From the NCBI GenBank assembly GCA_016285085.1, contig JAEEQA010000005.1, forward strand, positions 1 to 64,000: 64,000 nt of DNA, in the 5' to 3' direction. The notes beneath the pieces were generated by a model. It did not search any database. It had not been told where the DNA came from and saw nothing but the letters and a program-made list of their open reading frames with translations. Shown piece after piece: positions 48,046-63,999 of the stretch. This stretch comes from Bacteroidales bacterium (GTDB taxonomy: Bacteria > Bacteroidota > Bacteroidia > Bacteroidales > WCHB1-69). The position numbers were made by a program, and so were the translations under genes. Position 1 is the first letter of the stretch, and every line of letters starts with the position of its first letter.

Positions 48046-48076
48046 AAAAAAAAAGGGGATGTTTTCGCATCCCCTT
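48046..48076 (-). terminator. Strong terminator after rpoC
   Basis: On the minus strand AAGGGGATG-cgaaaa-CATCCCCTT is followed by TTTTTTTTT. It lies 7 bases after the rpoC stop and ends the secE-rpoC operon. Confidence 0.92.
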
Positions 48077-48082
48077 CATTTG

Positions 48083-52381
<4,299 letters not shown>

Positions 52382-52403: not shown

Positions 52404-56216
<3,813 letters not shown>

Positions 56217-56325
56217 TAACTTTTTAAGGGTTGTTAAAAAAGCGTTTCGGTAAGTAGTGGAGTCACCGGAGGCATGTAATAAGTAAAAAGGATAGGGGAG
56301 TTGGGGGAAGGTTAGGAGTGGATTA

Positions 56326-56380
56326 GAAAAAAATAGCAATAAGCACAAGGGTCCCGGCGGGACACCTTGCGCTTATTGCT
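56326..56380 (-). terminator. Attenuator-like terminator between rplL and rpoB
   Basis: On the minus strand AGCAATAAGC-g-CAAGG-TCCC-GGGA-CCTTG-t-GCTTATTGCT forms a long stem, followed directly by ATTTTTTTC. It begins 15 bases after the rplL stop. Its place inside an otherwise continuous operon suggests partial termination, which would lower rpoBC relative to L12. Confidence 0.82.
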
Positions 56381-56394
56381 TGACGCAAAATGAA

Positions 56395-56775
56395 TTATTT
56401 CACTTCGATTTCGGCGCCGGCTTCTTCGAGGGATTTCTTCAAGCCCTCAGCCTCATCTTTGGTAACGCCTTCCTTGACCGGTTTCGGGCAGGAGTCAACG
56501 AGTTCCTTAGCCTCTTTCAGTCCGAGGCCGGTGAGTTCCTTCACCAGTTTCACGACGGCCAGTTTGCTGGCGCCGGCGGATTTCAGGATAACGTCGAAGG
56601 AGGTCTTCTCTTCGGCGGCTTCGGCGGCACCACCAGCGGCGGGACCAGCGGCGACGGCCACTGCTGCGGCTGCGGGTTCGATACCGTACTCTTCCTTCAA
56701 AATTTGAGCCAGTTCGTTAACTTCCTTAACGGTCAAATTCACTAATTGTTCTGCGAATGCTTTCAGATCTGCCAT
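56395..56775 (-). CDS. rplL: 50S ribosomal protein bL12
   Basis: 126 aa. Helical N-terminus and the C-terminal [42 protein letters not shown] typical of L7/L12, with the Ala-rich hinge ([20 protein letters not shown]). Forms the stalk with L10. Confidence 0.99.
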
Positions 56776-59379: not shown

Positions 59380-59415
59380 TTCTGAATAATTTTCGGTGTT
59401 ATATACTTTTCTCTT

Positions 59416-59463
59416 TTACTTCAACACTTTCGTTTTGGAAATTTTCGGAGTTTTTTCTGCCAT
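59416..59463 (-). CDS. Possible 15-aa leader peptide upstream of secE
   Basis: ATG at 59463 gives MAEKTPKISKTKVLK and a TAA, a Lys-rich peptide in the secE leader, 36 bases before the secE ATG. It might be a leader peptide or chance; no known homologue. Confidence 0.2.
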   Translation of the reverse strand: MAEKTPKISKTKVLK

Positions 59464-59588
59464 TCTCACGCAAATAATTATAAACAACAAGAATGTTGAT
59501 TACTTTTAAAACGTATTGTAACTCAACACATTATTGCCTATAAAAAATCATACCCCCCGCCGCTTTCTCCTATTATCCAATAAGCCTG

Positions 59589-59596
59589 CAAATATA
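59589..59596 (-). promoter_or_regulatory. Promoter -7 element of the secE-rpoC operon
   Basis: TATATTTG followed by CAGGC on the minus strand, about 210 bases before the secE ATG, so a long leader is transcribed. Confidence 0.6.
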
Positions 59597-59746
59597 CAAC
59601 TATTTTTATTCCACCGACAATGTTGAAAATTTTATTGAAAAATTTTTTTCGGAGCGGATTTTGGCACGGTTTGGGTCATTTTCCTTGACTTTTATGCAAC
59701 AAAGTACATGCAAAGTATTCTCTCGTGTGGGAAAAGGCAACAAGTG

Positions 59747-59769: not shown

Positions 59770-62700
59770 TTACTCCCCGCAGTAATTTTTGACACATCGG
59801 ATGCTCAACCCGTAGTTTTTCTGCTGCGGGTCGGTTTCCATATCGCAGAACGCGGGCATGACGACGGACGTGGATGCGGGGTTGCGGGTGATGTCCACAG
59901 CCCAGAAGGCGGCGCTGGTCATCAGGCTCTCGTAGCGGCCAAGGGCGGCATTATAGATGCCTCCGCCCCGGGCGTTGAACCCGGAGTTGGGAGTCGCGCC
60001 TTCTGTGTCCGGAACCCAGAAGCGGGTGTCGGCCTCCTTGACTAGGGCCAGCCTTTCGCCGGCGTTGAAATAGAGTATCTCGAAGTCTTCAACGGTGGGC
60101 ACGCCCCAACCCTCGGGGCAGATGCCCTGCACGAAAGTCCGTGCACCGTCGGTCGAGAGCAGCGGCACGGCAAGGTCGTCGTTCTCAGGCACGCGGGCGG
60201 CGGAATACCAGCTGTAGAGGTATCCGTACAGGTCGCGGAGCGAGTCGCTGCCGTTGTAGGAGCTGTAACTGGCGACGGGGGTTCCGTCGGAGTAGAAGGC
60301 ACTGCGGATGTTGGTCTGCGTCCAGCACTGGCATCCGATGCGGATGGCGGGATAGACGTTGCCTTCAAAATCGACGGCGTCGTTGCAAGGGGGCAGCACT
60401 CTCACGCACTGCGTGCAGGTGACGGTGTCGCCGCACTCGTTGACGGCCGACCACGTGACGGTGTGGTCGCCGAGCGGGTACCTGCCGTCCGAAGGGGCGT
60501 TGTTGAAGAGGGTGTCCGGCGTGAACGAGGTTGTCGGTATGCCGAGTTCGGAGGCGGTGATGAGGACGTGGGTTTCGCCGTCCGCCAGCCCGCGCACCAC
60601 GGTGTCGGGGCAGGAAAGCCCGGTGGAGGGGGCGGTAACGGTGAGCAGCAGGCGGACGACGCTGTCGCAGCCGTTGGCAGCGGTGAACACGGAGTCGATT
60701 ACATACTCTCCGGGCACGGAAATGTCGATGTTGTTGAACCCTTCGTAGGAGAGGAGGACGGTGTCGGGGCAGGTGCTGTACACGAACAGCGTGGTGTCCA
60801 AAGCAGGCTGTACGTACACGGAGGCTTTCGCCGGTGTGAGGTTGGCTTCAACATCGGTCGTAATGCTTCCGCTCCATCCGTCCCTTCGATAGTAAGTTCC
60901 AGAATTGAAATACACATGCAATTTACCCGATGTGGAGGTGAATGTACGGGGCGCGGTGAAACCTTGGCTAAAGTAACCCAGCGAACGAGCACGCCAACTA
61001 TCACCGTCATAGACAGCGAATGTGCCAATCCCGGTGTAGACATTGAGATAATCCATGGTCAGCACCACCTGCGCTCCCTCTTCTGCCACAAAAGTGTGAT
61101 GATAGGTTTTATAGGCGGTATACACACCGTCAGGTCCGCCGTCGTCATAAAACGGAATGGAGTCCATATACGCCACGATGGTGGTTTGGTCGTTTTTTGA
61201 GTCGTTGAGAAGGAAATCTCCGGTCACGTTCTTGCGGAAAGCCTCCTTCCGGTAGGGGCAGGTCGTCCGGTTTGAAACGGAAACATAGAGTGTGGTGTCC
61301 GTTGTCAGGCTGGCAAAATTCAGAAGGGATATGTTTCCCGAGGATACGGTGTCGCAAAGAAGCACGCTGTCAAGCGAGGCGTTCCACCACTCGTAATACT
61401 GCGGGAGTTCAATGTCCGAAGAGGCAGAGATGGTGGCAGATTTCCCGAAGCAGATGGAGTCGTTGGTGGTGGTCACAAGAGGCAGATACGGCATCGTATA
61501 TACCACTTTGACGGGTGTGGTCTCAGGAAGGCAGTTGCTGTCATTGTCCACCTTCACATAATAAGTGAAGGTGTTCAAAACATTAGGCAGGGAGAGCCGT
61601 GCCATCTCCGCTGCTGTATGAAGTGTGTCCGACTGAATGAGATGGTTGTGGGTGTCGTCGTACCAATTGAAATATTGTGGGAAGGATATTCCTGCGATGG
61701 GGTTTGCCGACAGGGTTGCCGTCTGCATATAGCAGACGGTGTCGGGAATAACGGTCGGTTGCGCGTAGGAGTAAGGGAAAGAGAAGAATTGTGCCGTGTC
61801 CTCGTCTGCCTGCCGTGGGTTTCCGTTCCAGTCCCAGTCGCCATAGACCACATCCGTTGCGGCATCCCCATACAGGCACGACCAGATCTGTGCTTTGGGA
61901 ATGTAGGTGGTGTATGATGTAGGTAGCGAGGAAAGTTTCATATTGAAGGGGAAGGTGACGCTGTCGCCGGGAGCGATATTGCTGATGTTGTATATGCCGC
62001 GATAGGTGTCATTGAAGGCACAGTTCTGCGGAAGCCGCAATCGGACAGACACTTCGCTTGCGGCTCCGGTGCCAGCGTTGCGGACAGTGAGCTTGCCAGT
62101 ATAGATTTCGCTGCAGTGTTGGGGCGGATCCATTTCAAGTGTCAGCGAGAGACGTATGTCGGAAACGGGAATGTAGTAGTATGCGGTATCTTTCTCATTG
62201 CAAGCGTCGGGCGAACGGTCGGCAACGGCCACGCGTACATACAAGCTTTCTGTGAGAGGATCGAGCCGGAGTTCGGAGGTGTCGGTGGCTTCCGTGAGTG
62301 CAGGAATCCAGTTCGTTTCATCGGTGGATGTTTCCCATGTGTATTGATAGAGGACACCCCGCCCGCCCGAAGCGGCGGCCTGCAGGGTGACATCCCCGTT
62401 GTAGCGGAAAGGTGCAGGAGTGAGGGAAGTAATTGCCACTTTAACACTGTCCAATGCCTTTGCTATCGCATTGACTGTTTCAAAGTCACTTCCGATTTGC
62501 GCGTCCCATCCCGCTGAAGTACTATATAGATTGGAGAGGAACCACAGGGTCATGCTGCTCCCGTTGGATACGATGGGCGCGGGCAGACGGGTGTTCAGAT
62601 TTCCCGTCAGTTCGGCAATCAGTGAGTCGGGATGAGTGGTGTCGCCTGAATAGACCAGCAGCTTGTCAGGAGATTCTACTGAAAAACTACTGAATATCAA

Positions 62701-63999
62701 TGTAATAGGAGTGTTATCTGTGGAAAAGAAGGTATGTTTGACACTCTCATTGTTGCGATATTCACCCTCGTTGCCGCCAGAGTCGCGGAACAATATCGAT
62801 TTGCCGCATTCAATCGAAGTGTTTCCGGCTGCCATGTTCATTTGCGAGAAAATGGTCTGGGGATGGGATTCGCAGTATTCACTGTTCTCGGCGGTGACAT
62901 AAACTGCAGTGTCTTCTGTAAGGCCGAAGAAATGGAAGTCTGCATAATCGGTGGCTGACGAGATGATATCCGACCGCAATAACTGTTGGTGATTATTGTC
63001 TCTGTACCAGTGCAATGTATAAGGAGGTGTCAGGGAGGAGCGGGCATGGACGGTCGCGTCATCCCCTTGGCAGACAGTGTCGTGAAGGGCGGAAACCATA
63101 CAAGAGGAGGCATACCTTGTGCGCAGTGTAATATGCACCGTGTCTTCCGGGATGGTATAGGTGCAGTTGTCGTCCTGCACACTATGGACCCAGAAGATTC
63201 CTTCAGAGTAGGGAACGTAGGAGTGTCCGCTGCTGTTGGTATAGTTCTGGAAGGTGGTTCCCGAAGGCTGCTGGTGTCCGATGGTGTAGTGTACATCCCC
63301 GACCCCGCTGGACGTGTAGGTGAGCGATACTGTGTCGCCGGGGCATATTATGGCATCATCGGCGATATGCACGGACGGAGCGGGTTTGACTTGGATCGAA
63401 ATGCTGTCTTCGACGATACCGCACCCTGTGCCTGAAAACTGCACCTTGTAGGTGCCGCCGGATGCGCCCCTCTGCAAAAACAAGGAGGTGTCGCGTGCCG
63501 CGCTGGCAAAGCCGTCAGGCCCTTCCCACCGATAGATCACGTCATCCCCGAAATTCAGGGAATTCAGGTGGACAAGAGTGCCTTCACATTCTTCAGATGC
63601 ATACACCCCTCCACCAAGCCAGCACTTGTGTAGGTTCTCCAAGTCATGGACAGTAGTGTTGACATGGAAACTGGCGAGGCACTGGTCAATGCTCTCCACG
63701 CTTACCACCTGGCCGCTGCGGACGGGCACGTTGTCGAACCGTCCGGTCTGGTTGGAAGCGAGCAGGGTGCCTGTCTTGTCGGGACCGGAATAGAGGTTGT
63801 AGGTGTAGGGGGCGGTTCCGTTGATACTCTTGACACGCACGAAACCCTCGGTCGATGCTGCATTGCAGGTATAGGCGATGTCGTATTCGTGTTCAACGGT
63901 TCCGCCGGAAAAGTAGATAGTATCGTCTATGTGGTAAGAGTCACTCGACGGGCACTCATCGGCATACATCCTTACCACATAGGTTCCAGGACGAGTCAA
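59770..63999 (-). CDS. Large secreted multidomain FISUMP protein (partial, start outside window)
   Basis: 1409 residues to the right edge with no start or signal peptide in the window. In order: beta-sandwich/Ig-like repeats with a C-G-x-x-A core (DTVCQGDDATVHA, DTVCYMQTATLSA, DSICFGKSATISA, near residues 305, 755 and 845), two CUB-like segments (CGKSILFRDSGGNEGEYRNNES near 400 and IPFYDDGGPDGVYTAYKTYHHTF near 950, each ending in a W..I/W-G motif), an HYR-like domain (about 1125-1205, GRYPLGDHTVTWSAVNECGD) and a C-terminal FISUMP domain (from about 1205, CNDAVDFEGNVYPAIRIGCQCW, GICPEGWGVPT, SIRCVKNYCGE). Probably a surface adhesin-like protein of unknown role; the largest gene in the window. 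Confidence 0.85.
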   Translation of the reverse strand: MTRPGTYVVRMYADECPSSDSYHIDDTIYFSGGTVEHEYDIAYTCNAASTEGFVRVKSINGTAPYTYNLYSGPDKTGTLLASNQTGRFDNVPVRSGQVVSVESIDQCLASFHVNTTVHDLENLHKCWLGGGVYASEECEGTLVHLNSLNFGDDVIYRWEGPDGFASAARDTSLFLQRGASGGTYKVQFSGTGCGIVEDSISIQVKPAPSVHIADDAIICPGDTVSLTYTSSGVGDVHYTIGHQQPSGTTFQNYTNSSGHSYVPYSEGIFWVHSVQDDNCTYTIPEDTVHITLRTRYASSCMVSALHDTVCQGDDATVHARSSLTPPYTLHWYRDNNHQQLLRSDIISSATDYADFHFFGLTEDTAVYVTAENSEYCESHPQTIFSQMNMAAGNTSIECGKSILFRDSGGNEGEYRNNESVKHTFFSTDNTPITLIFSSFSVESPDKLLVYSGDTTHPDSLIAELTGNLNTRLPAPIVSNGSSMTLWFLSNLYSTSAGWDAQIGSDFETVNAIAKALDSVKVAITSLTPAPFRYNGDVTLQAAASGGRGVLYQYTWETSTDETNWIPALTEATDTSELRLDPLTESLYVRVAVADRSPDACNEKDTAYYYIPVSDIRLSLTLEMDPPQHCSEIYTGKLTVRNAGTGAASEVSVRLRLPQNCAFNDTYRGIYNISNIAPGDSVTFPFNMKLSSLPTSYTTYIPKAQIWSCLYGDAATDVVYGDWDWNGNPRQADEDTAQFFSFPYSYAQPTVIPDTVCYMQTATLSANPIAGISFPQYFNWYDDTHNHLIQSDTLHTAAEMARLSLPNVLNTFTYYVKVDNDSNCLPETTPVKVVYTMPYLPLVTTTNDSICFGKSATISASSDIELPQYYEWWNASLDSVLLCDTVSSGNISLLNFASLTTDTTLYVSVSNRTTCPYRKEAFRKNVTGDFLLNDSKNDQTTIVAYMDSIPFYDDGGPDGVYTAYKTYHHTFVAEEGAQVVLTMDYLNVYTGIGTFAVYDGDSWRARSLGYFSQGFTAPRTFTSTSGKLHVYFNSGTYYRRDGWSGSITTDVEANLTPAKASVYVQPALDTTLFVYSTCPDTVLLSYEGFNNIDISVPGEYVIDSVFTAANGCDSVVRLLLTVTAPSTGLSCPDTVVRGLADGETHVLITASELGIPTTSFTPDTLFNNAPSDGRYPLGDHTVTWSAVNECGDTVTCTQCVRVLPPCNDAVDFEGNVYPAIRIGCQCWTQTNIRSAFYSDGTPVASYSSYNGSDSLRDLYGYLYSWYSAARVPENDDLAVPLLSTDGARTFVQGICPEGWGVPTVEDFEILYFNAGERLALVKEADTRFWVPDTEGATPNSGFNARGGGIYNAALGRYESLMTSAAFWAVDITRNPASTSVVMPAFCDMETDPQQKNYGLSIRCVKNYCGE

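Follow-up and report, generated by a model that had tools for sequence, protein, structure and literature searches.

How a single operon can supply many copies of L12 yet far fewer RNA polymerase subunits is a classic question, to which, to our knowledge, a detailed answer exists only for E. coli. The question arises again in a Bacteroidales bacterium (GCA_016285085.1), where secE-nusG-rplK-rplA-rplJ-rplL-rpoB-rpoC follow one another on the minus strand of the window, the 64,000-nucleotide stretch (positions 1 to 64,000 of contig JAEEQA010000005.1) analysed here. An earlier note on this DNA proposed an attenuator-type terminator of the E. coli kind between rplL and rpoB. The hairpin and U-run found there (Table 1) are probably a leaky intrinsic terminator inside the secE-nusG-rplKAJL-rpoBC unit, a reading supported by conservation of the hairpin, by the absence of a promoter ahead of rpoB, and by how the locus differs in genomes where rpoB is separated from rplL.

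Table 1. Features of the operon and of the rplL-rpoB junction in the window.
Feature	Position	Strand	Basis or remarks
Consensus Bacteroidota promoter upstream of secE	59589..59620	minus	TTG-N21-TATATTTG
rplL (ribosomal protein L7/L12), preceding the hairpin	56395..56775	minus	Gene list and homologues
Putative attenuator hairpin	56335..56380	minus	21 bp with a single bulged base; loop GCC; fold and covariation in 34 family relatives
Tail A-T7-C	56326..56334	minus	U-run after a one-base spacer; A 56334, T7 56333-56327, C 56326
Promoterless rpoB leader	56217..56334	minus	C-rich, G-poor, without TAnnTTTG
rpoB	52404..56216	minus	ATG at 56216, or TTG at 56210 aligned with the relatives' start codon
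rpoC	48083..52381	minus	Gene list
Canonical terminator after rpoC, end of the unit	48046..48074	minus	GGGGATG-CGAAAA-CATCCCC-T9, 7-bp stem

The GC-rich stem and T-run that the earlier note placed at 56326-56380 have exactly those coordinates, and the distance from the rplL stop codon, which ends at 56395, to the hairpin is 14 nt on the minus strand. Read from 56380 to 56335, the hairpin is AGCAATAAGCGCAAGGTGTCCC-GCC-GGGACCCTTGTGCTTATTGCT, followed by ATTTTTTTC to 56326; its sequence occurs once in the genome. The fold of 21 pairs and one bulge reaches -35.4 kcal/mol, where shuffled sequences give -13.9 (sd 2.6; z -8.4), and none of 200 shuffles is as stable. A simple terminator scan with a consensus is uninformative, with 12 sites found and 13 expected by chance, and the full stem is missing from its output because it is bulged.

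No TAnnTTTG promoter had been seen ahead of rpoB, and a scan of the window's rplL-rpoB spacer agrees, finding neither TTG-N17-23-TAnnTTTG nor even a bare TAnnTTTG; a consensus promoter stands before secE. Between that promoter and secE lies a leader of about 200 nt (59380-59589). Farther upstream on the same strand, a very large ORF of more than 1400 aa (59770-63999) extends beyond the window and resembles a repeat-rich surface protein. At the other end of the spacer, the probable start of rpoB is a TTG codon within 56208-56216, with an ATG lying two codons ahead of it in the window. TTG occupies the aligned start in 10/10 members of the window's genus, in 38/39 other members of the family and in about half of the phylum sample, the others having ATG.

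The part of the rpoB leader directly past the hairpin (56283-56326, minus strand) is markedly C-rich and G-poor (CTAATCCACTCCTAACCTTCCCCCAACTCCCCTATCC). C exceeds twice G in all 10 rpoB leaders of the window's genus (C 0.32, G 0.11), and a bias toward C of this strength is absent in other families. The composition suggests a resemblance to a Rho utilisation site in the leaders of this genus, and would hint at a Rho-dependent variant of the element there.

The earlier note had named conservation in related genomes as a check on its reading, and the hairpin proves to be nearly universal at this junction. Loci of rplL were gathered from the genus, family, order and phylum, and about 300 Bacteroidota loci were compared, including named genomes of Bacteroides, Parabacteroides, Flavobacterium, Capnocytophaga, Pedobacter, Hymenobacter and Algoriphagus. 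The gene next in line after rplL is rpoB in 214/228 relatives. A hairpin of dG <= -15 kcal/mol within 110 nt of the stop is present at 97% of 213 distinct rplL-rpoB junctions, compared with 9% at rplJ-rplL, 15% at rplA-rplJ and 24% in shuffled spacers; a handful of short-spacer loci are without it (L209, L226, L228, L272). Two of the records with Bacteroidota-like rplL-rpoB loci, JAMPDC010000001.1 ('Staphylococcus sp.', L289) and CANLEQ010000002.1 ('uncultured Rhodobacteraceae', L307), are probably mislabelled or mis-binned.

The letters of the stem vary between lineages, with pairing maintained by compensatory change. Within the window's family (34 relatives), compensatory changes affect 10 of 14 pairs (59 cells vs 15 in shuffles), and none of 500 shuffles reaches the covariation score. 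Across 75 Bacteroidales and Flavobacteria sequences they affect 7 of 11 pairs (165 cells vs 53). Judged from this covariation, the structure is kept by selection.

The U-run behaves differently from the stem. When it is scored as the T count of 8 with a bulge-tolerant helix scan, at least 7 T are present at 13% of loci with adjacent rplL and rpoB (n=274), at least 6 at 57%, and 4 or fewer at 16%. Measures that took the single most stable hairpin, or only unbulged stems, were set aside; they blurred the contrast or missed sites, because unrelated stable hairpins were chosen or bulged stems overlooked. One member of the window's genus (L008) has the stem and no U-run, ending in TATAATCCC. As judged from these comparisons, the U-run is conserved less than the stem, and termination thus cannot be the sole selected feature everywhere.

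That observation keeps alive a role in RNA processing, instead of or besides termination, since several relatives combine a long stem with a poor U-run. RNase III would cut the stem, or the stem would block 3' exonucleases, with little or no termination, and rplKAJL and rpoBC would become two mRNAs, the first stable and the second decaying on its own. In favour of this, the stems at rplL-rpoB are long (median 19 bp) and almost fully paired, as suits RNase III; the genome encodes that enzyme; in E. coli the rplL-rpoB spacer is one of its substrates (PMC2777011); and the stem is conserved where the U-run is not, both in L008 and in lineages ending in ATTGGCGTCTATA. True operon ends, however, have similar stems when measured alike (median 18 bp), and processing would need no T7-8 right behind the stem, yet most members of the window's genus keep one and 57% of adjacent loci retain at least 6 T of 8. 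Processing with little or no termination is therefore an unlikely account of the site, though one with a real chance of being right. A point against leakiness is the window's own U7, which resembles that of a strong rather than a leaky terminator, as does the U7-8 typical of its genus; with T7-8 behind the stem in most members, set off in the window by a one-base spacer, this site could terminate strongly.

A natural experiment is offered by about 20 genomes from several lineages (families f111, f112 and f67, one genus of the window's family, and named Cytophagales and Chitinophagaceae), in which rpoB is not directly behind rplL. At least 7 T of 8 follow the hairpin after rplL in 75% of these separated cases (n=20) and in 67% of rplQ operon ends (n=30), against 13% where rpoB is adjacent; the contrasts of adjacent with separated loci and with rplQ ends give p of about 1e-6 and 1.5e-5, figures that ignore kinship, as do all these separated-versus-adjacent counts, to which f111 contributes many of the separated cases. 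The promoter TTG-N18-22-TAnnTTTG precedes 7/17 separated rpoB genes (41%; shuffled 1.3%), and a bare TAnnTTTG precedes 13/17. Before adjacent rpoB the same promoter occurs at 2/274 loci (0.7%), which equals the background (shuffled 0.8%), a contrast of p=2e-8 with kinship again ignored. In these comparisons, a predicted full terminator after rplL and a predicted promoter for rpoB are found together when the genes are separated. One locus with no rpoB in reach (L164) retains a hairpin of the adjacent type; it is uninformative because its assembly shows no rpoB at all.

In several Cytophagales and Chitinophagaceae with separated rpoB (L236-L244, L300, L315), these genes have a promoter block in common, resembling TTG...TACCTTTG, about 160-230 nt upstream of the start. 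Many of their leaders also close with a stretch resembling AAAACCGGTTTAA ahead of the ATG.

Might the window's hairpin be a full terminator, with rpoBC transcribed from an unrecognised promoter of its own downstream? The stem and U7 look strong enough, and a leader of 118 nt leaves room for a promoter. The window's spacer nevertheless lacks TAnnTTTG, adjacent loci carry the consensus promoter no more often than shuffled sequence although 7/17 of the separated ones have it, and adjacent loci with strong T-runs likewise lack it (1/35), all of which makes this arrangement highly improbable. Judged from sequence, adjacent rpoB, normally without a promoter of its own, must be reached by read-through past the hairpin.

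In the attenuator reading, RNA polymerase from the secE promoter would arrive at the end of rplL, where the nascent hairpin would fold and a fraction of the polymerases would be released at the U-run. Release would leave plentiful rplKAJL mRNA whose 3' end the hairpin protects, while the remaining polymerases would read through and be the sole source of rpoBC mRNA. The presumed purpose is to hold RNA polymerase subunits well below ribosomal proteins. By analogy with E. coli, termination at this site, its partial nature and its role in setting the L12:RNAP ratio are most likely, and a second role as an RNase III processing site, as in E. coli, is possible. No description of attenuation at rplL-rpoB in Bacteroidota appeared in the literature searched, a body that includes only a minority of subscription papers. 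On the comparative evidence, the element is the predicted phylum-wide Bacteroidota counterpart of a known kind of attenuator. The same solution would then operate across Bacteroidota, and the genomes in which a full terminator and a new promoter coincide with the separation of rpoB give a natural test of the model. The loci also offer ready candidate read-through terminators for Bacteroides genetics.

Conservation of letters as well as pairing raises the further question of whether the stem is recognised by a protein. In the 75 Bacteroidales and Flavobacteria sequences, the letters themselves are conserved as GGTTTAG...CTAAACC-W-TTTT-G-YGTATATA, with GG, A, CC and TTT invariant. Many Bacteroidales have two hairpins in the same order as E. 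coli, CCTG...CAGG and GGTTAAG...CTTAACC, then TTTTTGYG; the first, smaller hairpin and the tail CCTTTTTGYG are features that they share with E. coli. The E. coli locus has a hairpin from about 40 nt after rplL and then the tail CCTTTTTGCG; its anatomy is a small hairpin, CAGCCTG-AGAAAT-CAGGCTG, then GGCTGGTGACT-TTTT-AGTCACCAGCC, then TTTTTGCG. When 49 kb of E. coli are searched with a model of 29 Bacteroidales, the attenuator is the best match (E 0.02). The next match (E 0.16) lies about 170 nt past a 5S rRNA gene, where we would expect an rrn terminator, and has the tail TTTTTGCG too. The claim that homology to the E. coli element is proven was accordingly rejected: given the weak E of 0.02 and an identical tail at the second match, common descent is suggestive only.

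A regulated antiterminator or protein-binding element, in which a factor such as L10-L12, or RNA polymerase with NusG, would bind the stem and control read-through, could draw on this conservation beyond pairing and on the small leading hairpin (CCTG-N5-CAGG) of many Bacteroidales and E. coli. It is quite improbable, given that no alternative fold was identified for an antiterminator and that in the window's family the stem has another sequence and the small leading hairpin is absent, so any such recognition does not extend through the phylum in that form. The same tail also adjoins an rrn operon at another E. coli site, and the similarity is therefore partly generic. A bolder proposal is that Bacteroidota and Proteobacteria have in common an ancient regulatory RNA, its stem specific in sequence and its weak tail fixed as UUUUGYG, and that a trans-acting factor reads it and so couples RNA polymerase synthesis to ribosome synthesis; it seems unlikely.

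Among known systems, the rpoBC leader of marine cyanobacteria (cluster 245) was predicted computationally as an attenuator like that of E. coli (Axmann, 2005, PMC1242208). Like the window's element, it is predicted between rpl genes and rpoBC, but it belongs to another phylum, has '-' in the column for experimental detection, and is likened here by description rather than sequence. Lacto-rpoB RNA (Rfam RF01709) is a candidate structured RNA named after rpoB (PMC2864571) and restricted to Lactobacillales, whereas no Rfam family, Lacto-rpoB and the L10 leader included, reaches its gathering score in the window, and 11 relatives are likewise unmatched; the search of 11 loci returned chance-level matches alone (E up to 5). 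Canonical Bacteroidota intrinsic terminators, at the ends of rplQ and rpoC, combine a stem with a U-run as the window does, but at least 7 T of 8 is the rule at rplQ ends (67%) and not at adjacent rplL-rpoB sites (13%).

The closest comparison is the E. coli rplL-rpoB attenuator (Barry, Squires & Squires, 1980; Steward & Linn, 1992; as cited in PMC1242208 and PMC5371410), which uncouples rpl from rpoBC expression (PMC4670729). Partial termination is proven in E. coli only, where its efficiency is also reported to be regulated. The stem is 21 bp in the window and 11 in E. coli, the spacer to rpoB is 178 nt rather than 319, and, unlike E. coli, the window lacks a small leading hairpin and has a single base between the stem and its U7 tail. 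The two nonetheless share the junction, the orientation, a GC-rich hairpin soon after the rplL stop, a U-run and predicted read-through into rpoBC.
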